Shown here: piece after piece, positions 2,090 to 16,841 of the stretch | How positions within the stretch are numbered: the stretch's first letter is position 1 | How the letters are laid out: each line of letters starts with the position of its first letter | IMG/VR virus record: IMGVR_UViG_3300007760_000107 | Location: 1 to 21,336 of that record | Source of the DNA: a virus | DNA: 21,336 nt | Direction: 5' to 3' (one strand) | Notes under the pieces: generated by a model | Databases searched by the model: none | Told to the model about the DNA's origin: nothing | The model's input: only the letters and a program-made list of their open reading frames with translations | Made by a program: the position numbers and the translations under genes

Positions 2090-5008
2090 ATGTCAGTTAA
2101 GAATTTTAAATTTGTATCTCCTGGGGTGTTTATTAATGAAATAGACAACTCGTTCATCCCGAGATCAGCGGAAGAGATAGGACCCGTTGTAGTCGGGCGC
2201 TCCACACGGGGCTTAGGTATGACTCCTGTAAAGGTTGCATCATACTCTGAATTTGTAGAAATGTTCGGAGACACAGTTCCTGGCAATGGTGGTGGAGACA
2301 TCTCCCGATATGGAAACCTTCAATCTCCCATGTACGGCACATACGCAGCTAAAGCGTTCTTAAATGCTAATGTTGCTCCTCTTACTTATGTGCGACTTTT
2401 GGGACAGCAAGAATCGGCAGCTACGGGCGACGGTCTCGCCGGATGGGAGACCCTTAATGATCCTGCTTCAACGCTCCACGAAAACGGTGGTGCCTACGGC
2501 ATTTGGTTGTTTGCTAGTGCTTCCGGTGACCAAGGATGGGAATCTAATTACTTAGGTACCGGCTCATTGGGAGCAATAGTATATGTCAACTCTGGTTCTA
2601 CCATAGAATTAAGCGGTGGTGGCATTGGATCCGACGCCGGCGCGACCGCAGGGGACGCCCCCTCTGCCTCTTATGCGGGAGTGGCGAAAGCCGTTGCCTC
2701 CACAAGTGACGGCACTATTACGGCTATTATTAGTAGTTCTGAGAATGCTTCTCCGCGTATAGTAATTGATTTTAATTTTGATGATTCGTCTGATTCGTTT
2801 ATTCGCAAGCGCCTTAACACGAATCCTCAATTGACGAGTGATGCTGGCACTTTTTATCCTTCTGCCTCTTTCAAGACTTATTGGTTAGGCGAATCATATG
2901 AACAAACTTTGCGCGATAACAGCCTCATTGGAGCCGCTGTGGGAGCAGCTATTGTACCTCTCGCTTTAAGCACTACAGTAGCTACGGGTCCCAACAACAA
3001 ACGCCAAGCCTCTCAAGAAGGAAAAACAGGCTGGGTTATTGCTCAGGATTTGGGAACTGCCGGATCCTTTGCTATTGAAGATATGCCTAAACTTTTTCAA
3101 CTAGTCGGCCGCGGGCATGGCGGATGGCTTCACAAGAATTGTAAAGTAACAATTGAAGACATTCGTAAGTCTGCCCTTTCCACTAGCGATTATGGAACAT
3201 TCTCTGTCGTAATTCGTAGACTTTCCGATAGCGATAACGCTCAAGAAGTAATGGAAAGATTTGATTTGTGCACTTTAGACCCAACGTCGGTTAACTTTGT
3301 TGCCCGCAAGATTGGTGATCGGTATGTGGTATGGGACACGACAGCACGACGACTTAAGGAGTATGGAGATTACCCGAACCAGTCTAAGTTTGTTTATGTA
3401 AAAATGGATGCCGACTGCGAAGCTGGCGCGACAGATCCTCTGTTACTTCCTTATGGCTATTTTGGTCCGCCCAAGTTTGTTGGATCAGAGAACCTTACGA
3501 ATCAAGGATCGTCACAGCCTTTGACACAGGGCGCCTGGTATTTTTATACTGGCTCAACTTTCGGAGCATTCCCAAGCGTCAACGCCAAACCATACCTCTC
3601 AGGAGCTACTGGGGGGACAGCAGCGCTGACGTCTTCAATGACTTTCCCTTCGGTAAGGTTGAGATTATCAGCTTCTGATGGCGGCATTTCCGACCCCACA
3701 AGAGCATGCTTTGGGATGTCTACAACGCGCGCCGCAGATAGCACCACTTTTGATCCCAGCGTAGGAGATTATCACAATATCCTTCGAGCCTCTTTCACAG
3801 GCGGCGGCGGTGATGGTGGCGCTACAGGAATCTTGGATCACGCTTATGTCTTCTCATTAGACGATGTTTGTGTGTCCAGTGGCAACTACTTCTATGTATC
3901 TGGCTCACGCCTCCTTGAAAATAGTGTCGCTTACGGCACGCTGCTAGCGGCAGGTTATGATAGCTTTACGATGCCTTTCTTCGGCGGCTTTGACGGATTT
4001 AACGAGAAGGTGCCAGATCCCATGTACAACAAGGGAATTCCAGGCGCTGGTGGCTCAGGGACCGGTACAGCTACGGAACAAAATAGTTCAGCTTACTATA
4101 CCTGGAAGCGCGCCATGGATACAGTATCCGATCCTGAAGCGGTCAACATGAATATGTTGGTGCCTCCAGGACTCACGGTTGACTCTCTCACTCAGCATGC
4201 AGTTAACATCTGTGAAGAGCGCGCCGACTCCTTAGCGCTTATTGATTTGTCGTCGGTATATATTCCTTCGGCCGAGCAATATGACCAGGGTGATAAAACC
4301 AATCGAATTGGAACAACGCCTTCAGCAGCAGCTACAGCGCTGCGCGATAGGCGGATTGACTCCAGTTACGGTGCCACTTTCTATCCATGGGTACAGACTC
4401 GGGATGAAAACACAGGACGTCTCCTGTGGATTCCGCCCAGTGTAGCAATGATGGGAGTTCTTGCAAGTTCACAACGCAAAACTGCAGTTTGGTTTGCGCC
4501 AGCCGGGTTCAATCGCGGCGGCTTAACTGACGGAGCAGCAGGAATCCCCATTACGCATGTTTCTGAGAGGTTGACCTCAAAGAATCGCGACACTCTATAC
4601 GATGCAAATATTAATCCTATTGCTTCATTCCCCTCCAGCGGTATTGTGGTCTTCGGTCAGAAGACTTTGCAAGAAGCCCAGTCGGCTCTTGACAGGATTA
4701 ACGTAAGAAGGCTTGTTATCTACTTGAAGAAGCAGATTTCAGTTCTTTCTACAAAGGTTCTCTTCGAACAGAACGTTCAAGCTACTTGGAACAGGTTTAC
4801 AAGCTTGGTTGAGCCCCTTCTTTCGAATGTGAAAAGTCAGTTTGGTATTACCGACTATAGGTTAATATTGGACGAAACTACAACAACGCCAGACTTAATT
4901 GATCAGAACATTTTGTATGCGAAGATTATGATTAAGCCGGCACGCGCCATTGAATACATTGCCATCGACTTTGTGATCATGAACACTGGCGCTTCTTTCG
5001 ATGACTAA
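2090..5008 (+). CDS. gp18: Contractile tail sheath protein, gp18-like, unusually large
   Basis: A 972-residue protein. It opens with 'FVSPGVFINEID' (residues 8-19), the N-terminal signature of myovirus tail sheaths that forms the strand linking sheath subunits. The C-terminal part (about 860-972; KKQISVLSTKVLFEQNVQAT, then YAKIMIKPARAIEYI) is the conserved core domain that packs on the tube. A conserved 'GGFDGFNEKVPDP' lies near residue 630. T4 gp18 has 659 residues, so roughly 300 extra residues sit in the Gly/Ser/Thr-rich region between about 100 and 630, probably surface domains of the sheath. An AGAGGAA ribosome-binding site precedes the ATG. The gene starts what looks like its own transcription unit and is followed by a hairpin and the tube gene. 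The protein should polymerise around the tube and contract on infection. Confidence 0.93.
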   Translation: MSVKNFKFVSPGVFINEIDNSFIPRSAEEIGPVVVGRSTRGLGMTPVKVASYSEFVEMFGDTVPGNGGGDISRYGNLQSPMYGTYAAKAFLNANVAPLTYVRLLGQQESAATGDGLAGWETLNDPASTLHENGGAYGIWLFASASGDQGWESNYLGTGSLGAIVYVNSGSTIELSGGGIGSDAGATAGDAPSASYAGVAKAVASTSDGTITAIISSSENASPRIVIDFNFDDSSDSFIRKRLNTNPQLTSDAGTFYPSASFKTYWLGESYEQTLRDNSLIGAAVGAAIVPLALSTTVATGPNNKRQASQEGKTGWVIAQDLGTAGSFAIEDMPKLFQLVGRGHGGWLHKNCKVTIEDIRKSALSTSDYGTFSVVIRRLSDSDNAQEVMERFDLCTLDPTSVNFVARKIGDRYVVWDTTARRLKEYGDYPNQSKFVYVKMDADCEAGATDPLLLPYGYFGPPKFVGSENLTNQGSSQPLTQGAWYFYTGSTFGAFPSVNAKPYLSGATGGTAALTSSMTFPSVRLRLSASDGGISDPTRACFGMSTTRAADSTTFDPSVGDYHNILRASFTGGGGDGGATGILDHAYVFSLDDVCVSSGNYFYVSGSRLLENSVAYGTLLAAGYDSFTMPFFGGFDGFNEKVPDPMYNKGIPGAGGSGTGTATEQNSSAYYTWKRAMDTVSDPEAVNMNMLVPPGLTVDSLTQHAVNICEERADSLALIDLSSVYIPSAEQYDQGDKTNRIGTTPSAAATALRDRRIDSSYGATFYPWVQTRDENTGRLLWIPPSVAMMGVLASSQRKTAVWFAPAGFNRGGLTDGAAGIPITHVSERLTSKNRDTLYDANINPIASFPSSGIVVFGQKTLQEAQSALDRINVRRLVIYLKKQISVLSTKVLFEQNVQATWNRFTSLVEPLLSNVKSQFGITDYRLILDETTTTPDLIDQNILYAKIMIKPARAIEYIAIDFVIMNTGASFDD

Positions 5009-5074: not shown

Positions 5075-5665
5075 ATGCCATTCTGGTCAGAAAATTTCGG
5101 TGAGAGTGCCGACCTCAAAGATCCAAAGAGAAAATTTAGATTTAAAGTAGAGTTTCAAGGTATTGGAACGTCTGCTACCGGAGGAGCATTGCTATGGTAT
5201 GCGAAGACAAGCTCTAAGCCCTCCTTTCAAATAAGCGCGGCGGAACACAAATATCTCAATCATACTTTCTTTTATCCTGGCTCGGTGACGTGGCAAGATG
5301 TGACGGTAACTTTGGTTGATCCTGTAGATCCAGACATGACTGCAACTCTTTCCGATATCGTACAGTTGGCCGGATATTCTCCTCCCACTGATTCCAGCGA
5401 TTTGACTTCAATGTCTAAGGCAAAGTCTGCCAGCGCATTGGGGACCGTAATCATCACTCAAATTGATGCAGAAGGAAAGGACCTAGAGCAATGGACCCTG
5501 TGGAATTCTTTTATCACTGAGCTTAAGTACGGTGATTTAGAGTATGGCGCAGATGACTTGACTGAAATTTCCGTTACTCTCAAGTATGACTGGGCTCGTG
5601 TGAAGACAGCCGGCGTCTCAACTGCCGCAGCCGGCGATGGTGCCAGCGAGTTCTTCGCAGGTTAA
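5075..5665 (+). CDS. gp19: Tail tube protein, gp19-like
   Basis: A 196-residue protein, slightly longer than T4 gp19 (163 residues). The N-terminal 'DPKRKFRFKVEFQGI' strand, the central 'YPGSVTWQDVTVTLVDPVD' segment and the late 'TELKYGDLEYGADDLTEISV' beta-strand segment are the usual order in T4-type tail tube proteins. These stack as hexameric rings to form the channel through which DNA passes. The gene follows the sheath gene, the standard pairing in myoviruses. An AGGAG ribosome-binding site precedes the ATG. The last residues (about 178-196) are an Ala/Gly-rich tail without clear structure. No signal peptide or membrane segment is present. Confidence 0.88.
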   Translation: MPFWSENFGESADLKDPKRKFRFKVEFQGIGTSATGGALLWYAKTSSKPSFQISAAEHKYLNHTFFYPGSVTWQDVTVTLVDPVDPDMTATLSDIVQLAGYSPPTDSSDLTSMSKAKSASALGTVIITQIDAEGKDLEQWTLWNSFITELKYGDLEYGADDLTEISVTLKYDWARVKTAGVSTAAAGDGASEFFAG

Positions 5666-5696: not shown

Positions 5697-6554
5697 TTGG
5701 CTAGAAATACAGATCGGACAGGCGCACGAAAAACTAATGTAGAAGCGCCCCCTCCACCCGTAGTACAAAATAATAATTCAGAGGGCTTTTCATTTGTCGT
5801 CCCCACTGAATTTGTGGAGCTTCCTTCAAAAGGAAAATATTATCCAGAGGGTCACCCCCTTCATGGAGAAGATACTATTGAAATTAAACAAATGACCGCA
5901 AAAGAAGAAGATTTGCTCACGTCGAGGGCTCTCCTCAAGAAGGGGATTGCAATAGATCGACTCATTAAGAGCATTATTGTCAACAAAAATGTCAACGCTG
6001 ATTCGTTACTGGTAGGGGATCGCAATGCAATCTTGATTGCAACTAGAGTCTCTGGCTATGGGAGCGAATATGGTACCAGTGTGACGTGTCCTTCATGTGG
6101 AGTCCAGCAGGACTATGAGTTTAATTTGAATGACGCTTCAGTTTACGACGGCAACGGCTATAGTGCCGACGAAGCAACTCTTCAAGAAGATGGAACCTTT
6201 ATGACGGTTCTTCCTCGCACCAAAGTCGAAGTTGCTTTTCGTTTGTTGAATGGAGTAGACGAGCGTAACCTAGTGATGCAAATCGAGAATGCGCGCAAGA
6301 AACGACAAGATGAAAACCCCATTACACGCCAACTTCGACAGTTTATTGTTGCAGTGAATGGCAACTCGACTCAAGAGGCTATTAACTATTTAGTAGATAA
6401 TATGCCCTCGAGCGATGCGCGCCACTTGCGTCTAGTTTATAAGCTTACAACGCCTAATATTGATCTTACTCAAACGTTTGAATGTAACGAGTGTGATTAT
6501 GAGCAGGAAATGGAGGTGCCGCTCACTGCGGACTTTTTTTGGCCTGACCGATGA
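5697..6554 (+). CDS. gp26: gp26-like baseplate/tail assembly protein with a zinc-ribbon-like site
   Basis: A 285-residue protein with a probable TTG start; CGAGG upstream is a plausible ribosome-binding site and no better ATG exists near the start. After a disordered Pro/Asn-rich leader (about 1-30), 'PTEFVELPSKGKYYP' and 'EIKQMTAKEEDLL' match the T4 base plate protein family to which T4 gp26 belongs. Two CxxC pairs, C131/C134 and C263/C266, probably bind one zinc ion. The gene lies just before the tape measure, where lambda has gpG and many phages have the tail-assembly chaperone. The last codons read through seven T (6534-6540) and stop 12 bases later at 6552-6554. In the +1 frame, coding potential continues to 6792, which suggests a frameshifted longer form. 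Family assignment is good; the assembly role is inferred. Confidence 0.8.
   Translation: MARNTDRTGARKTNVEAPPPPVVQNNNSEGFSFVVPTEFVELPSKGKYYPEGHPLHGEDTIEIKQMTAKEEDLLTSRALLKKGIAIDRLIKSIIVNKNVNADSLLVGDRNAILIATRVSGYGSEYGTSVTCPSCGVQQDYEFNLNDASVYDGNGYSADEATLQEDGTFMTVLPRTKVEVAFRLLNGVDERNLVMQIENARKKRQDENPITRQLRQFIVAVNGNSTQEAINYLVDNMPSSDARHLRLVYKLTTPNIDLTQTFECNECDYEQEMEVPLTADFFWPDR
6534..6540 (+). other. Candidate slippery site for +1/-2 ribosomal frameshifting
   Basis: Seven consecutive T are read as TTT TTT TGG in the gp26-like frame, 12 bases before its TGA. A +1 slip (TTT TTT, skip T, GGC) or a -2 slip leads into the frame open to 6792. The P-site tRNA-Phe could re-pair perfectly after either slip. 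The product would be about 364 residues (+1) or 365 residues (-2). Confidence 0.5.
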
Positions 6555-6792
6555 ATACATCGAGAACGTGTATGAGCAGTTCTTTTTCTTAAAGTATTCA
6601 GGCGGTTGGTCATTTTCAGAAGCTTATAATTTGCCTCTTGGTTTGCGGAAGTGGTTTGTTGGGCGCTTAGTGCAACAGATTGAAAAAGAGAATACTGCCA
6701 TTGAAGAAGCTTCTCGAGGATCTGGCGGCTCTCGCACTCAAACTTTGACTCCATATAATCAACCGCAAATTCCAGACAGCATGAAGCGATAA
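6541..6792 (+). CDS. Second-frame extension of the gp26-like gene, or small separate tail gene
   Basis: The protein-like part of this frame begins at about GLTDEYIENV and continues with 'FFLKYSGGWSFSEAYNLPLG', a sequence typical of small proteins encoded between gp26 and the tape measure in T4-like marine phages. The frame lies +1 to the gp26-like gene. Coordinates start at the first base after the T run because no start codon is convincing. TTG 6460 and ATG 6499 would add basic, low-quality residues that are merely the out-of-frame reading of the upstream gene, and both lack a ribosome-binding site. CTG 6544 has none either, and GTG 6568 has only a weak GAG upstream. It is either the C-terminal part of a frameshifted tail-assembly chaperone (83 residues) or a separate protein of about 74 residues from GTG 6568. 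Confidence 0.65.
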   Translation, partial: GLTDEYIENVYEQFFFLKYSGGWSFSEAYNLPLGLRKWFVGRLVQQIEKENTAIEEASRGSGGSRTQTLTPYNQPQIPDSMKR

Positions 6793-6807: not shown

Positions 6808-6834
6808 AGACAGGGCAATTGCTCTGTCTTTTTT
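6808..6834 (+). terminator. Rho-independent terminator before the tape measure gene
   Basis: AGACAG pairs with CTGTCT, followed inward by a G-U pair and GC/GC around an AATT loop, and the stem runs directly into TTTTTT. This is a good intrinsic terminator, placed 15 bases after the stop codon at 6792. It ends the sheath-tube-gp26 unit, and a promoter-like motif follows within 4 bases. Confidence 0.8.
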
Positions 6835-6837
6835 ATG

Positions 6838-6882: not shown

Positions 6883-9540
6883 ATGGGAATTGGTGATCCA
6901 CCCGGAGACAATCCGTCTCCCACACCCGAGCAAATCGCGATAGCTGAACGGTTACTAAACATAGGGCGTGAAACTACTCGAGATCTTCAAACGCGACTAG
7001 AAACACTGAACAAAGTCATTAACAGAGAAGGGGAGTATAGTGCCCTCATCAAGGATGAGTACGCAGATCGCCAACGGACAAAACTTTTAAGAGAGACAGA
7101 ACTACAGCTTGAAGGACAACTTCTAGATGAAATGCGTAAGCGCATCCTCGCCGGCGCAGATTACCAGGATCTACTGGAGGGGATGAGCCCCGAGCAAAAG
7201 GCGCATTATCAACAATTAGCTGACAATCTGCAGCTGTTAGACGGTCAATTAAACTCGGTTGAAGCTATTAGAGACGCTCATCAGCGCATCAACACACAGC
7301 TAGCGGAAGGCACGCCTTTACAAACTAAGATGATGAAAGCTGCAGCCGATTGGGGCGCCGCGATGGAACAGGGCGCCAGAGCGACAGCCAGTTTAGCTTG
7401 GGGTAAATCTTTGGCGGGCATGGAAGTCGCTATTAAGAAAATAACGAGAGTTGGTGTCGATCTTATAATGCAATTTGATCAACAAACTAAAGCATTTGAA
7501 CGTCAACTTCAATTAGGTCCGAGATATACACAAGCGATAAAAGCTAATTACAAAGCACTTAATGAATATGGGGTGAGCATTGAAGATGCCACCAAAGCTG
7601 AAACATCGCTTGTTAAAGCTGTCACTGATTATACAATGATGAGCGGCGCCGAACAGCAAGCTTTACGCACTAGTGGCGCGCTAGCCGCAGAACTGGGCGT
7701 GAACATTGAGGACTATGCGAAGGGTGTCCAGAATTCCATGAAGATGTTCGACCTATCAGTGGGAGATGCAATTGCAGTTCAAGGAGAGCTTGCGGCTACT
7801 GCGCGCATGTTGGGGCGTGATCAAGGAGAATTTGCAGCAGAATTTGCTGCCTCTGGACAAGCGCTAGCTAAGTTTGGCGATCAAGGTGTTAAAGCGTTTA
7901 AGGACTTGCAACATATTGCCAAGATTACAGGCATGGAAATGAACAAACTGTTGAGTATTACAAACAAGTTTGATACCTTCGAAGGCGCGGCAGAACAAGC
8001 CGGTAAGCTAAATGCAGCACTAGGCGGCAACTTTGTAAATGCAATGGACTTGATGATGACTACCGATCCGGCCGAAAGGTTTAGTATGATCCGCGATTCA
8101 ATCTTAGATGCTGGTTTAAGCTTTGATGACATGAGCTACTACCAGAAGAACTTTTATAAGGACGCATTAGGTCTCGCAGATGTGGGCGACCTTGCGCTAA
8201 TGTTGTCTGGAAATATGGATGATTTAGCCGGCTCCTCTAATCAGAGCGCTGAAGCCCTCATTGAACAGAAAGAGCGCGCCCAAGCAGTCATGAACATTCA
8301 GGATAAACTTAAAGCTATTCTAGCTGATAACGCTGACGGGTTTTTGAAATTAGCAGAGACCGTTCAAAAATTTGTGTCATTCCTGCAGTACATTAGCCCT
8401 GTTCTCAGGTTGCTGTTTCCATTTATGGTTGCGCTCCGTGTTGCCACTATGGTGCAAGCCACGGCAAATATATTCTTGGCGTCAAGCAACCAGATGGTAG
8501 CAGCTGGAGCCAAGAAGGCTCAGATTCCGCTAATGCTTTTTGCGTCGGCGCTCTCCGCCATCGCCGCCGGCATGCTTATGAAATCTCCGTCCCTATTAGT
8601 TATAGCTTTATTCGCAATGGCAGGAGCATTGTTTGCGCTTAGCAGAGTTAGCGACACATCCGCCGCTTCTATTCAAAAATTAGCAATTCCAATGATGCAA
8701 TTGGGAGCAGCTATTTTTCTCGCAACAGCAGGTGTAGCATTAATGGCTGCAGCCTTCTCGTTGCTAAGTGTTGAACAGATGGCAGGCATGGCAGTCGTAT
8801 TGCTTGCTATTGGAGTAGGGCTTTATTTCTTAACGCCTGCTTTGATAGCTGCCGGCGGCGCTGCAATGGGAGTTGCTCCTGGTTTGCTTATTTTAGCTGC
8901 CGTCTTCTTGGCAATTGGCGCCGGCATCGGCATGGCTGCAGCAGGCATCGGGCTTATGGGCACCGGTATGGCAATGTTGTTTGAAGCTATAGATGTTCCG
9001 AAAGCCGGCGCTCTTCTGGCGCTGTTTATAGGCTTAGGTGTTATGGCACCACTTCTCCTTCTAGCTTCAGTGGGCGTGGGATACCTCGCAGTAGCCTTCG
9101 CAGGGCTTGCACTTTCGATGGCACTAATGAGCACTGAAAAGGTAGCCGCTTTTGGCGAATTTATCTCCTCTTTGGGAGGTTTAACTGACATAGCAAATCT
9201 TGCTGCAGTGCGGTCTGAGATTGAAGGTATTATTGAGACCATTGGAAAGCTTGACACACACAAGACTCTTACATTTACCAGCAACCTCGAAGCGTTAGCG
9301 GATGTAGAGAAACTAAGCGCAGCCACCAATCGTCGTGCCGCTGCAGGAACCAGCGCAACGGTAGAAAAAATGGCAATGATCATTAACGGCACTCAAGGAA
9401 CTGCAGCCCCAGCCGGCGCCGAAACAATAGAGAGAGTAAGACAACCTGTTACTCTTAAAGTGGACGGCGACGAGATGGCCAACTTTGTAATCGAGGTAGT
9501 AGGAAAAAGAGTTAAAGAGCTTAATTTGCACAACGGCTAA
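6883..9540 (+). CDS. Tail tape measure protein
   Basis: An 885-residue protein preceded by AGAGG. The N-terminal third (about 10-150) is charged and mostly helical with coiled-coil character. The central region (about 150-500) is Ala/Gln-rich and helical. The part from about 505 to 760 is a chain of hydrophobic, Gly/Ala-rich segments (for example LLVIALFAMAGALFALSR and LLILAAVFLAIGAGIGMAAA), as in tape measure proteins that insert in the host membrane during DNA delivery. The C-terminal 120 residues are soluble. The protein should set tail length from inside the tube and leave the tail at infection. At roughly 1.5 angstrom per residue, 885 residues would suggest a tail of about 130 nm, a rule of thumb only. 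The position, after the gp26-like frameshift region and before the baseplate genes, fits. Confidence 0.88.
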   Translation: MGIGDPPGDNPSPTPEQIAIAERLLNIGRETTRDLQTRLETLNKVINREGEYSALIKDEYADRQRTKLLRETELQLEGQLLDEMRKRILAGADYQDLLEGMSPEQKAHYQQLADNLQLLDGQLNSVEAIRDAHQRINTQLAEGTPLQTKMMKAAADWGAAMEQGARATASLAWGKSLAGMEVAIKKITRVGVDLIMQFDQQTKAFERQLQLGPRYTQAIKANYKALNEYGVSIEDATKAETSLVKAVTDYTMMSGAEQQALRTSGALAAELGVNIEDYAKGVQNSMKMFDLSVGDAIAVQGELAATARMLGRDQGEFAAEFAASGQALAKFGDQGVKAFKDLQHIAKITGMEMNKLLSITNKFDTFEGAAEQAGKLNAALGGNFVNAMDLMMTTDPAERFSMIRDSILDAGLSFDDMSYYQKNFYKDALGLADVGDLALMLSGNMDDLAGSSNQSAEALIEQKERAQAVMNIQDKLKAILADNADGFLKLAETVQKFVSFLQYISPVLRLLFPFMVALRVATMVQATANIFLASSNQMVAAGAKKAQIPLMLFASALSAIAAGMLMKSPSLLVIALFAMAGALFALSRVSDTSAASIQKLAIPMMQLGAAIFLATAGVALMAAAFSLLSVEQMAGMAVVLLAIGVGLYFLTPALIAAGGAAMGVAPGLLILAAVFLAIGAGIGMAAAGIGLMGTGMAMLFEAIDVPKAGALLALFIGLGVMAPLLLLASVGVGYLAVAFAGLALSMALMSTEKVAAFGEFISSLGGLTDIANLAAVRSEIEGIIETIGKLDTHKTLTFTSNLEALADVEKLSAATNRRAAAGTSATVEKMAMIINGTQGTAAPAGAETIERVRQPVTLKVDGDEMANFVIEVVGKRVKELNLHNG

Positions 9541-14000: not shown

Positions 14001-14467
14001 GAGGCATTTGGCATTATCAGATAGGAAAACCCACAGGCATCATTAAAAACATTAACTTAACTAAGACTGACGCTCCAGGTCTCAAGGAGGTTCGCTTTGA
14101 ACAACAAGGATATGATGGGCTTCAACAGTTGAGAGAAATGTATGATGCTAAGATAAGCACATATGCAGATGTAAGTGCTTTTCCCGGCAATTATATATTC
14201 ATCGACCCTGCAGGCTTTTCACCTAGTGTGAATAGCGAGTACGATTTGACACAATTGGGAGTGGGGGGATATCATATGATTATTCGTTCGGAACACACCT
14301 TTGGTCCTGGCGTGGCTAACTCTGAAATTACAGCAAAATGGGTAGCGGAGATAACGAAGCCTGGGTGTGTGGTGCCGAAGCAGGTTGATGAAGAGGACAA
14401 AGAAGTTGATTATAGTAAATGCACATTGCCCTCTCGTCAGGCGGCAGCAGCGGAGTCAGGCACATGA
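11051..14467 (+). CDS. Large putative baseplate/structural protein (1138 aa)
   Basis: A 1138-residue protein starting 3 bases after the LysM-like gene, with GGGGAT as a ribosome-binding site. The N-terminal 300 residues are charged and Ala-rich with several Cys. Residues about 320-600 look beta-rich, with 'TPTIHEFNIDEQGRVEFVLN' and 'EDFFDQSVFNIFSDP' as notable segments. The C-terminal 250 residues contain many aromatic and Gly residues (for example GNYIFIDPAGFSP and GGYHMIIRSEHTFGPG) and end in a polar tail with two Cys. I recognise no enzyme motif. Size and position among baseplate genes suggest a hub, spike-complex or wedge protein of the virion; this is inference. It overlaps the next gene in ATGA, so translation is coupled. 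Confidence 0.6.
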   Translation: MAGCWDGDVTDFDAIKELEAAYVEAALGIHAAANPTQTAEDGSPIPTTEGAPIWIDANIGSDYADYSEEGEKFWENAGSNANKIWGTWMVGNYQTSGLGDTRTALFNIQREINTHQGLDPALMTDEHRADITAKIEAFKEAYPDLAQCTDGLQKQATDDYRKFLTELMDKNDMLRGLPEEIARISEGAKNSAVGQKCLAARATATDRGVSAEDLASVQFDPATSAACEAYDAAMSRGADLKERKEALVASATSTGKEGIVFKEQCFLLGHIYQLSQLKQTLDEEQALKSLPYQGGGTNACLLAQGDPFAFMNKLTQHIGKDGDSSKAAFFDMKTAQLSSLQPMIRLFKVISDKKGNESQIEMKFDSFYTSMAYPWGATMQSAIDRGAAPFLRGGFMGDLEDFLMNKKRRGHGVGIKKFTFSYEADNPFAIKKSIKAKLVLHANTFDELLRDRGDYSYADLALKTGGLPDGPQGCKPVTTDQINPLDHDVSTVPETKLNFRLKAIVGWARPGTDSLIPSGDPLKKAIEDSCITLNLTPTIHEFNIDEQGRVEFVLNYLAYVEDFFDQSVFNIFSDPTVTVSQLNRKLQYQEYNKTCETEKVNELRSSQKDLMQAEIDTSMQSLVTNLLNERKIQFLDIPLAELVTFQAEGPIRGEIDLAPYILGMPPGYEPTLTEQLSSDVEVRTNALRDVNPAQAVSYFYISDLIDIILKGIEKTLVDISEGSVSVGSSTDDPEGIITEQQIMDERANYVRYLENFKKFRLLLGPMEIVHTTKADPVTGKGGTIESKMICMGDVPISVRYFIEWLTKKMLKKDEAVYPLPKFLNDLFNEFLRTFLNNDTCFSNVAKQSTKLAQASLTAYKETVDGPDEITAAIQRTTYDVPLDDATMRANSDAWRQTQLLVEQGVLPADAVNDDMITDVRSVPAKRLRIDRSELSYPLLSISGQRGTAIVDPGFAKEINYLVYFAARTYPTEKMNGDKDEDQTRGIWHYQIGKPTGIIKNINLTKTDAPGLKEVRFEQQGYDGLQQLREMYDAKISTYADVSAFPGNYIFIDPAGFSPSVNSEYDLTQLGVGGYHMIIRSEHTFGPGVANSEITAKWVAEITKPGCVVPKQVDEEDKEVDYSKCTLPSRQAAAAESGT

Positions 14468-15663
14468 GCATTTATAGCGAAGACCCCAAAGCCGAATCGG
14501 TGAGCGAACTGTTTTATAAAAAAACTATTTATAATAATGATTCTATAACTTTAGGTTATGACAATTTAGTTGATTTTAATTTTGGAGAAAAGCTTTTATA
14601 TGGACGAGTGACTCAATTGTTTGTACCTATGGAGACAATGGGCGCCGGAGCCAACATGAAAGCTCTTCCCAACAAGCAGGCTGTAGAGGAGAACGCACAG
14701 GTTATTAATTTTGTAGCTGATGCATTCAAGGGGCTCTCGCAAGAGTTTGAGCGCTGCGCGCAGACTAAAAAAATTGATACGACCGATCCTTTTTTGACCA
14801 CCCTTAAAGTATACAAATCGTATGAAAAACCTCGTGTTCATTACCAGACACACCAAGCTAACTATACTAATGCACTTAAAGGCGCCTTCAAGGCGAAAAA
14901 TGTGCACCTTGAAAATTTTGAACAATTCATAAAAGAACTCACAGCAGCACTGGAAGGTGCAGTCGGCACCACTCCTTTCACCTATCCCGCATATATCAAA
15001 AGTCGCCGCTGCCCTGCTTCTGTTTCCGGCTTGGCAATAGAAATTGCAAATTTGGATCCCAACAACGATAAAGAGAAAATGGAAAAGTTTGTTGAGAGTA
15101 ACAATTGGGAGTTTTATTTAAATGCGTGCCGCTCTTATGGGTTTATGGTAGATAGACATATCCCTTGGCGCCTCGTTGCTGATATCGGCTCTTCCCCTAT
15201 GATTCAATATGCCAGCGCTTATGGTTCTAATTCAACTCCCAAGGTGTTGGGGACCTATTATATGCCGGCTTATAATTCGTACTATCACACCTTTAAAGGC
15301 CAACTGTTGACGATATATAATAGAATTAAGCCGAAGTATATTAGAAAAACCGATGAATGTAACGGCAAGACAATCAATATCACCATTCGCCCCGCTGACT
15401 ATACGCCAGCTTACTTGAATCTTAAGTTTTCAGAAGAATTTTTTTTAGAAACGTATTTTAAGATTAGATTCATGGAAGAAGAATCGCAGTTTTCACCCGA
15501 AGAGAAGCGGTTGCTTGTGGACGACTTGTTAGAAATCAACAGAACACACAGCGCAATGAAAGCAGTTGCACAATTTGAACGAATTCTTAATAAACCATTT
15601 GACTATCGTGGCTCTTTGAGTTATATTATAAAGAGGAAAAAGCTTTTAGAAGCTACGGAGTAA
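14464..15663 (+). CDS. Uncharacterised protein, probably virion/baseplate-associated
   Basis: A 399-residue protein from the ATG at 14464, which shares ATGA with the preceding stop. A longer in-frame start at 14419 would add 15 residues that are only the out-of-frame reading of the upstream gene. The protein is soluble, mixed alpha/beta and rich in Tyr, with 'ESNNWEFYLNACRSYGFMVD' near the middle and 'FDYRGSLSYIIKRKKLL' at the end. I recognise no family or active site. Its coupling to the large baseplate gene suggests a structural or tail-assembly role. It is followed 2 bases later by a polymerase gene, so it marks the boundary between late and replication functions without any visible terminator. 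Confidence 0.55.
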   Translation: MSIYSEDPKAESVSELFYKKTIYNNDSITLGYDNLVDFNFGEKLLYGRVTQLFVPMETMGAGANMKALPNKQAVEENAQVINFVADAFKGLSQEFERCAQTKKIDTTDPFLTTLKVYKSYEKPRVHYQTHQANYTNALKGAFKAKNVHLENFEQFIKELTAALEGAVGTTPFTYPAYIKSRRCPASVSGLAIEIANLDPNNDKEKMEKFVESNNWEFYLNACRSYGFMVDRHIPWRLVADIGSSPMIQYASAYGSNSTPKVLGTYYMPAYNSYYHTFKGQLLTIYNRIKPKYIRKTDECNGKTINITIRPADYTPAYLNLKFSEEFFLETYFKIRFMEEESQFSPEEKRLLVDDLLEINRTHSAMKAVAQFERILNKPFDYRGSLSYIIKRKKLLEATE

Positions 15664-15665
15664 AT

Positions 15666-16841
15666 TTGTTTTTCCAAACGCTTGATGACAAAAGAGAATG
15701 CGTTGGCGTGTATGCCAATGGCAAGTTACATTTTGATGAGATTCCGACAGGGCTTACCAAAACGTGGAGATATACTGGTTCCATTGTTGAGCCGGGTATT
15801 GAATATGCATGGCTGTATGCGCAAGGGAAAACCTTACAAGAGGCATGCCCCGAAGAACTTCAAGCAGACTTGGAGAGAGCCCAAAAGAGATTCAATGCTT
15901 ATATGAAAGCCTTTAAAATTGGTAAGATTGACATGCGTCATCATTGCTTTTTTGACTTAGTGCCTGAAAATTTTTTAATGGAATTTTGCGAGATTAAGAA
16001 CAAGGTCACAGAACACGTATTTAAGACTTATGAAAAGCCAACGAATTATGATCTGCTTGAGGGATCCCATCGACTTCTCCATAAGATAAAATATCAAAAC
16101 CTTAATCTTAATAAAGAAGGATGTCGAGAACTCTATTATTCATCCCGTGGACGCAGCAAAGCCAACGAGCTTATGAAAAATTACTACTACGTAGACTACA
16201 ACCTGTTTGGCACGGTCACAGGGCGCCTTACCACCTCTCCAATTTCGTTTCCCATGCTCACACTTAAGAAAGAATTTCGTAAGCTTGTAAAGCCTCACAA
16301 CGATTGGTTTATTTCGCTTGATTACAATGCGGCCGAGCTTAGAACGTTCCTTCATTTGATGGGAGAAGAACAGCCAGAGGAAGACGTCCATGAATGGAAC
16401 GTTAAACATGTATTTGGAGGAAAACAGGATCGCGAGACAGCTAAGACTTTATTTTTTGCATGGCTTTACAATCCCGAATCAGATGCTATCAAAGCGGATC
16501 AATATGATAGAAAAAAATTGCTTGACAAATGGTATGATAATGGATATATTAAGACACCATATGGCAGAGAGATTTTGGTTGACGAGAGAAAAGCTTTAAA
16601 TTATCTGATTCAAAGCACAACCTCAGATCGTGTTTTAAGCAGGGCAATTGAGATCGATAAGCTATTAGAAGGGAGCAACTCTTTTGTTTCCCACATTGTA
16701 CATGATGAAATTGTAATAGACTTAGACGACAGCGAACGACAAATGCTTCCCACTCTCAAAGGGTTGTTTGAAACTGATAATTTCAAAGCTAATGTGAGGG
16801 CCGCCAAGAACTATTTTGATTTTGAAGAGTTAAAAATATGA
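15666..16841 (+). CDS. Miniature family A DNA polymerase without exonuclease domain
   Basis: About 391 residues from a TTG start with CGGAG 5 bases upstream; no ATG lies near the beginning. All family A polymerase motifs are present. 'TGRL' is at 185-188. Motif A is DYNAAELR with catalytic D219. The O helix reads R256-x3-K260-x3-F264-x3-Y268, equal to R754/K758/F762/Y766 of E. coli Pol I. 'GYIKTPYGRE' is at 293-302, and motif C is VHDE with D347. Motif A to motif C spans 128 residues, against 177 in Pol I, and the stretch after the O helix is cut from about 60 to about 25 residues. No 3'-5' or 5'-3' exonuclease motifs are seen; the first 110 residues are unrecognised. It should extend DNA primers during phage replication. 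A related arrangement (separate polymerase and exonuclease genes) is known in the far-T4 phage RM378. Confidence 0.88.
   Translation: MFFQTLDDKRECVGVYANGKLHFDEIPTGLTKTWRYTGSIVEPGIEYAWLYAQGKTLQEACPEELQADLERAQKRFNAYMKAFKIGKIDMRHHCFFDLVPENFLMEFCEIKNKVTEHVFKTYEKPTNYDLLEGSHRLLHKIKYQNLNLNKEGCRELYYSSRGRSKANELMKNYYYVDYNLFGTVTGRLTTSPISFPMLTLKKEFRKLVKPHNDWFISLDYNAAELRTFLHLMGEEQPEEDVHEWNVKHVFGGKQDRETAKTLFFAWLYNPESDAIKADQYDRKKLLDKWYDNGYIKTPYGREILVDERKALNYLIQSTTSDRVLSRAIEIDKLLEGSNSFVSHIVHDEIVIDLDDSERQMLPTLKGLFETDNFKANVRAAKNYFDFEELKI

Follow-up and report, generated by a model that had tools for sequence, protein, structure and literature searches.

Comparative evidence for probable two-way decoding of a T4-like tail assembly chaperone gene by programmed +1 ribosomal frameshifting

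Comparison of sequences makes it very probable that a T4-like tail assembly chaperone gene is decoded in two ways through a programmed +1 ribosomal frameshift. The gene lies on a stretch of 21,336 nucleotides, positions 1 to 21,336 of the IMG/VR record IMGVR_UViG_3300007760_000107, which is called the window throughout. The junction, the coding of the second frame, the homology and the +1 direction are well supported by comparison with related loci; from these we infer a pausing step, two products, the ratio between them and their role in assembly.

Organization of the chaperone gene

The features of the chaperone region are on the plus strand of the window, where the gene order is sheath, tube, chaperone and presumed tape measure. 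The tail sheath protein of 972 aa (2090..5008; PHROG 23, E 4e-59) is followed by a gp19-like tail tube protein (5075..5665; PHROG 4542, E 4e-27), the chaperone gene and a gene for a protein of 885 aa (6883..9540), which from its position is presumed to encode the tape measure protein. The gene that follows the chaperone in Flavobacterium and Listeria phages carries a tape measure annotation; the product of 6883-9540 itself matched no family, and BLASTP against the Flavobacterium phage protein gave nothing clear.

The 0-frame gene, designated TAC-N (5697..6554), encodes a gp26-like tail assembly chaperone of 285 aa with a TTG start and a TGA stop at 6552-6554. An earlier reading of the window, made from the sequence only, had described a gp26-like frame that passes TTT TTT TGG and ends 12 nt past a run of seven Ts. 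The codon readout of 6534-6554 agrees with this, with TTT at 6534 and 6537, TGG at 6540, CCT at 6543, GAC at 6546, CGA at 6549 and TGA at 6552, and the T7 run occupies 6534-6540. The continuation in the +1 frame to 6792 was likewise found as described: the frame is open from GGC 6541 to TAA 6790-6792, and its 83 codons, beginning GLTDEYIENVYEQF, encode the C-terminal domain TAC-C (6541..6792, 83 aa). Translated with the step TGGC=G at the shift site TTT TTT T (6534..6540), the predicted frameshift product TAC-NC (5697..6792) would comprise 364 aa with the junction ...LTADFF-GLTDEYIENVY.... Shuffling of 6551-6789 leaves the +1 frame open with a probability of ~0.006, and it is conservation rather than this value that provides the real test of the frame. 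The identical T7 in another assembly, L002 (99.98% identity over 6252 bp), rules out an isolated sequencing error in the run.

Conservation among related loci

A search of IMG/VR with the +1 product alone yielded 80 loci, representing the nearest relatives. All of them, and the window (81/81), retain the 0-frame gene together with its shift site and the extension in +1, and the 0-frame stop follows 5-6 codons after the TTY. Three scans with N-domain alignments and the addition of GenBank matches widened this set to 326 loci with the N-domain, of which ~240 were retrieved via this domain, so that the result on the +1 frame is independent of having searched for the extension. The C-domain lies directly downstream in 317/326 loci, in the +1 frame in 315 and in the -1 frame in two (L085 and L089), and no in-frame fusion of both domains was found among the 317. 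Eight of the nine N-domain loci without C-domain end within 85 nt. MAG contigs (genome_contigs) contributed 12 further relatives, likewise +1, and a search of plasmids gave no match. Since some loci share one contig, counts are given for 263 unique junctions. The sequence-only reading had proposed a programmed frameshift before the tape measure gene, at the place where lambda G/GT-type chaperones shift, and the comparison (81/81; 315/317 in +1) lends this strong support.

Among the GenBank phage records L082-L088, those of Mel-JY01, immuto, SP-15, GXN1 and LIS04 list the extension as a small gene of its own for a hypothetical protein, list it in part or do not list it. Contig NHDW01000006.1 (305838 bp, labelled Methylococcaceae bacterium TMED69) has chaperone matches near both of its ends (L342 and L343), with equal identity and E-value and an identical junction. 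This contig may represent a large phage genome that has repeated ends and was binned as bacterial, and other chaperone matches in Flavobacteriales and Woesearchaeota MAGs may be phage contigs as well.

Shift site and direction of the shift

In the motif set (311 loci), TTY_YTT_T is present in 263/263 unique junctions. TTT (255) or TTC (8) precedes the P site, which itself holds TTT (238) or CTT (25). A T comes next in all 263, and the A-site codon that it opens reads TGG (223), TAC (37), TAT (2) or TTC (1). TTC accounts for 24% of the Phe codons elsewhere in these genes and for none at the P site. Since the P site holds TTT or CTT without TTC and the next T is invariant, we read the common element as YUU_U, on which one tRNA could re-pair one base forward, as on the CUU_U of prfB. 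Four GenBank outliers without YTT_T are still +1, with TTT_C in SP-15, GXN1 and LR756508 and TTT_A in LIS04. The uncultured phage LR756508 (L083 3728), which has no YTT_T, carries a +1-frame ATG immediately ahead of the junction; it may shift on TTT_C, or start at its ATG.

The direction had earlier been given as +1 or -2, not -1, and a +1 step is the most likely one. A -2 slip on the same run would reach the same final frame with one extra Phe (...DFFF-GLTDE), and we consider it improbable. The T7 run would allow it, and Mu-like phages use -2. The preference for TTT before the P site (255/263) would also be favoured by -2, but the 8 unique sites with TTC at this place would face a mid-codon mismatch. 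A Leu tRNA at TTT_CTT_T would re-pair on UUC in a -2 slip about as well as on UUU in a +1 slip. The T after the P-site codon in 263/263 junctions is required by +1 re-pairing and not by -2. The outliers GXN1 (TTC TTT CGT C) and LR756508 (AAC TTT CTA) fit a +1 step on UUC, not a -2 step.

Slippage of RNA polymerase on the T7 run, with the fusion read from an edited mRNA, would yield an identical product, and T7 runs can induce such slippage. Its probability is nevertheless very low, since the run is interrupted by C in 32/263 unique sites, which have 3-4 T in a row left, retain YTTT and keep the arrangement. This favours a +1 re-pairing like that of prfB over transcriptional slippage. Of the two features whose conservation among homologues had been in question, the overlap of the frames is conserved (81/81), and the T run is broken in these 32 sites with YTTT kept.

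Coding of the +1 frame

Past the 0-frame stop, pN/pS in the window's clade was 0.066 (codons 6-24) and 0.149 (codons 6-55), compared with 2.8 and 1.1 in the two other frames; these values are qualitative, because synonymous sites are saturated and the pairs are not independent. They indicate that the region beyond the stop is under strong purifying selection, in the +1 frame only.

As an alternative, the downstream ORF would be a separate gene with a start at GTG 6568 or another codon, or would be reached by re-initiation past the 0-frame stop, a reading to which we assign hardly any probability. Possible starts are present in the window (GTG 6568, and ATG 6499 in the +1 frame), a Shine-Dalgarno-like GGAGG lies upstream, and annotators of cyanophages name the C-domain a separate gp51. 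However, the start positions vary among relatives. From the last upstream stop to the 5th codon past the site, the +1 frame lacks ATG, GTG and TTG in 89/263 unique sequences, and in 36/263 no start codon occurs through the 25th codon, in agreement with the earlier remark that this frame has no convincing start. A start codon at the position of GTG 6568 is found in 24/263 unique sequences. A downstream ORF equipped with an ATG and a ribosome-binding site of its own was sought among homologues and not found as a conserved feature, and an independent start at GTG 6568 or other codons was rejected for want of a conserved start codon. Moreover, selection at the protein level reaches the codons adjoining the shift site, and a separate gene would not need the exact YTT_T. 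Finally, a sequencing error or a decayed gene can be dismissed: a one-base change within a T run is a typical error, but the arrangement recurs in GenBank isolates as well as in hundreds of independent assemblies, with 0/317 fused, and the second assembly of the same phage agrees.

For programmed +1 frameshifting we propose the following course. The majority of ribosomes would terminate at UGA 6552 and release TAC-N (285 aa). A fraction would pause with tRNA-Phe on UUU 6537-6539 and the A site waiting on UGG 6540-6542. The tRNA-Phe would then move one base forward onto UUU 6538-6540, GGC 6541-6543 would replace UGG in the A site, and reading on to 6792 would give TAC-NC (364 aa), in which the added, predicted helical domain is a homologue of the T4 gp51 C-terminus. 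If the two forms act like lambda gpG and gpGT, they may both coat the tape measure protein, with the long form recruiting the tail tube protein.

Protein family and predicted fold

TAC-N of the window matches PF12322 (E 1.3e-19), as do T4 gp26 and T4 gp51, and it also matches PHROG 150 (baseplate hub). Profile comparison of the N-domain with the T4/cyanophage set gave Prob 97.8 and E 9.6e-13. In T4, gp26 and gp51 are encoded separately, and gp51 extends ~48 residues past its PF12322 match. The C-domain of the +1 lineage matches that of the -1 T4-like phages (cyanophage group) with Prob 95 and E 2.5e-8, and the C-domain of the -1 group in turn matches the gp51 C-terminus with E 2.5e-12. Direct profile comparison of the +1 C-domain with gp51 is weak (Prob 18), so that the link to gp51 runs through the -1 group; comparison of the +1 fused protein with gp51 gave no end-to-end alignment. 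By their profiles, the predicted proteins make up a pair of tail assembly chaperones, with TAC-N corresponding by homology to T4 gp26 and TAC-NC to gp51, and we suggest that the label baseplate hub on these proteins be replaced by tail assembly chaperone.

For structure prediction, the N- and C-domains were folded separately. The AlphaFold2 model of the N-domain has a pLDDT of 90.6, and the C-domain is predicted to be helical. Foldseek found no significant match of the N-domain model in the PDB. The top solved matches after realignment were 3fgx, the HK97 tail assembly chaperone 2ob9 and YqbN 3klu, all with Z < 8. For 2ob9 (Z 5.8, 75 residues, rmsd 3.1) the value is below Z 8, and the modelled likeness to the HK97 chaperone is taken as supportive only.

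Sequences around the shift site

The Shine-Dalgarno-like GGAGG (6512..6516) lies 20 nt upstream of the P-site codon. In the window's clade, GGAGG is the best anti-Shine-Dalgarno match and has a fixed offset in 55/55 unique sequences, beyond what synonymous shuffles give. Anti-Shine-Dalgarno pairing upstream of the site is enriched over synonymous shuffles in the whole set, too, with the match in other groups lying for the most part at offsets between -36 and -31. At -12, GGG makes up 85/138 Gly codons, versus 9% elsewhere in the genes. Textbook frameshift stimulators lie closer to the site than this GGAGG. The -1 cyanophage group has a Shine-Dalgarno-like signal, GGAG, ~10 nt before the slippery codons, the spacing known for the stimulation of -1 shifting in dnaX. 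Downstream RNA structure did not exceed background in 60 sampled loci.

A terminator-like hairpin with a T run (6808..6835) was detected by a pattern scan between the chaperone gene and the next gene. A similar hairpin and T run follow the stop in 36/63 unique sequences of the window's clade.

Direction of shifting within the family

The arrangement in the window is not an X_XXY_YYZ heptamer with a -1 extension, since the window and 315/317 loci are +1. The extension is, however, in the -1 frame at T_TTT_TTC in cyanophages S-SSM7 and S-RIM8, Vibrio phage PC-Liy1, Aeromonas phage Asswx_1 and Citrobacter phage Ci1; Ackermannviridae phage SD25 is -1 too, on a different sequence. A cyanophage pair served as query for -1 relatives, and of the further IMG/VR loci related to the genes from cyanophages and the Vibrio phage, all that could be classified (81/81) are -1, at TTT TTC. 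The -1 group (cyanophages, Schizotequatrovirus and relatives) shares with the window homologous N- and C-domains and the location of the shift, at the matching Phe-Phe position close to where the N-domain ends. It differs in shifting by -1 on T_TTT_TTC with the Shine-Dalgarno-like signal ~10 nt upstream, as compared to +1 on YTT_T with GGAGG 20-30 nt upstream in the window's lineage.

A tree of the N-domain separates the -1 T4/cyanophage group strongly from the +1 lineage in terms of support; it places L085 (-1) beside the SP-15 group (+1), and L089 sits on a long branch with unsure placement. Together with the frames, this unrooted tree implies at least one change of direction, which may have gone either way. 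Tentatively, and with less than even confidence, we propose that a very large T4-related myovirus lineage uses +1 shifting on YUU_U before a sense codon, stimulated by the distant GGAGG, versus -1 in its relatives on the cyanophage/T4 side. If true, the phages of this lineage would offer a very large natural collection of +1 sites that work without a stop codon, and a novel type of stimulator in the distant GGAGG. Since the family has both directions at one homologous place, it lends itself to the study of how sites change direction.

Comparison with known systems

As is predicted for the window, lambda produces two chaperone forms, gpG and gpGT, from one gene by a frameshift before the tape measure gene; the lambda shift is -1 at GGGAAAG. 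Most described phage chaperone frameshifts are -1. The prfB gene (release factor 2) uses re-pairing on CUU_U one base forward, as is proposed for the window's lineage, where CUU_U is present in 25/263 sites. It differs in that the ribosome stalls at the stop codon UGA with a Shine-Dalgarno sequence 3 nt away, while the A-site codon in the window's lineage is a sense codon (UGG, UAC).

With T4-like chaperones the window shares the PF12322 family, a place before the presumed tape measure gene and predicted short and long forms with one N-domain. T4 itself has two genes (26 and 51), and for T4-like phages PMC12846349 cites -1 polyT signals, as opposed to +1 in the window; PMC12846349 also describes -1 in Vandenendeviridae. 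The sequence-only reading had held that T4-like phages are not generally described as using a frameshift for gp26. This does not apply to some of them, as PMC10885494 and PMC12846349, citing Vladimirov, Gautam and Davidson (2022, Virology 566:9-15), report frameshifting of the gp26-type chaperone in some T4-like phages. A passage on the same study in PMC10885494 (PRFect) mentions some T4-like phages with a short and a long gene and no frameshifting. Further +1 shifts, reported or likely, in tailed viruses are those of Listeria phages PSA, A118 and A500 and of Halorubrum myovirus HSTV-2 (PMC5009743). The HSTV-2 case, at the chaperone position, is a likely, inferred one; the Listeria phages have CCC sites in capsid and tail-shaft genes, unlike the YTT_T chaperone site of the window.

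The literature search found no description of +1 in this lineage, with the direction in Vladimirov et al. 2022 taken from passages of the papers that cite it. Frameshifting in T4-like TAC genes is thus already known (2022). The apparent novelty lies in a +1 shift at the corresponding position of the protein, fixed in a very large lineage, together with the distant GGAGG. Gene callers miss the extension. With hundreds of natural sites, the requirements for +1 shifting at a sense codon are directly testable.

Further observations in the window

A T8 run (15439-15446) lies within a 414-aa ORF (14419-15663), where no frameshift is apparent. The short family A DNA polymerase ORF at 15666-16841 (391 aa) aligns with just a portion of the polymerase profiles, and the remainder of the enzyme may be encoded elsewhere.
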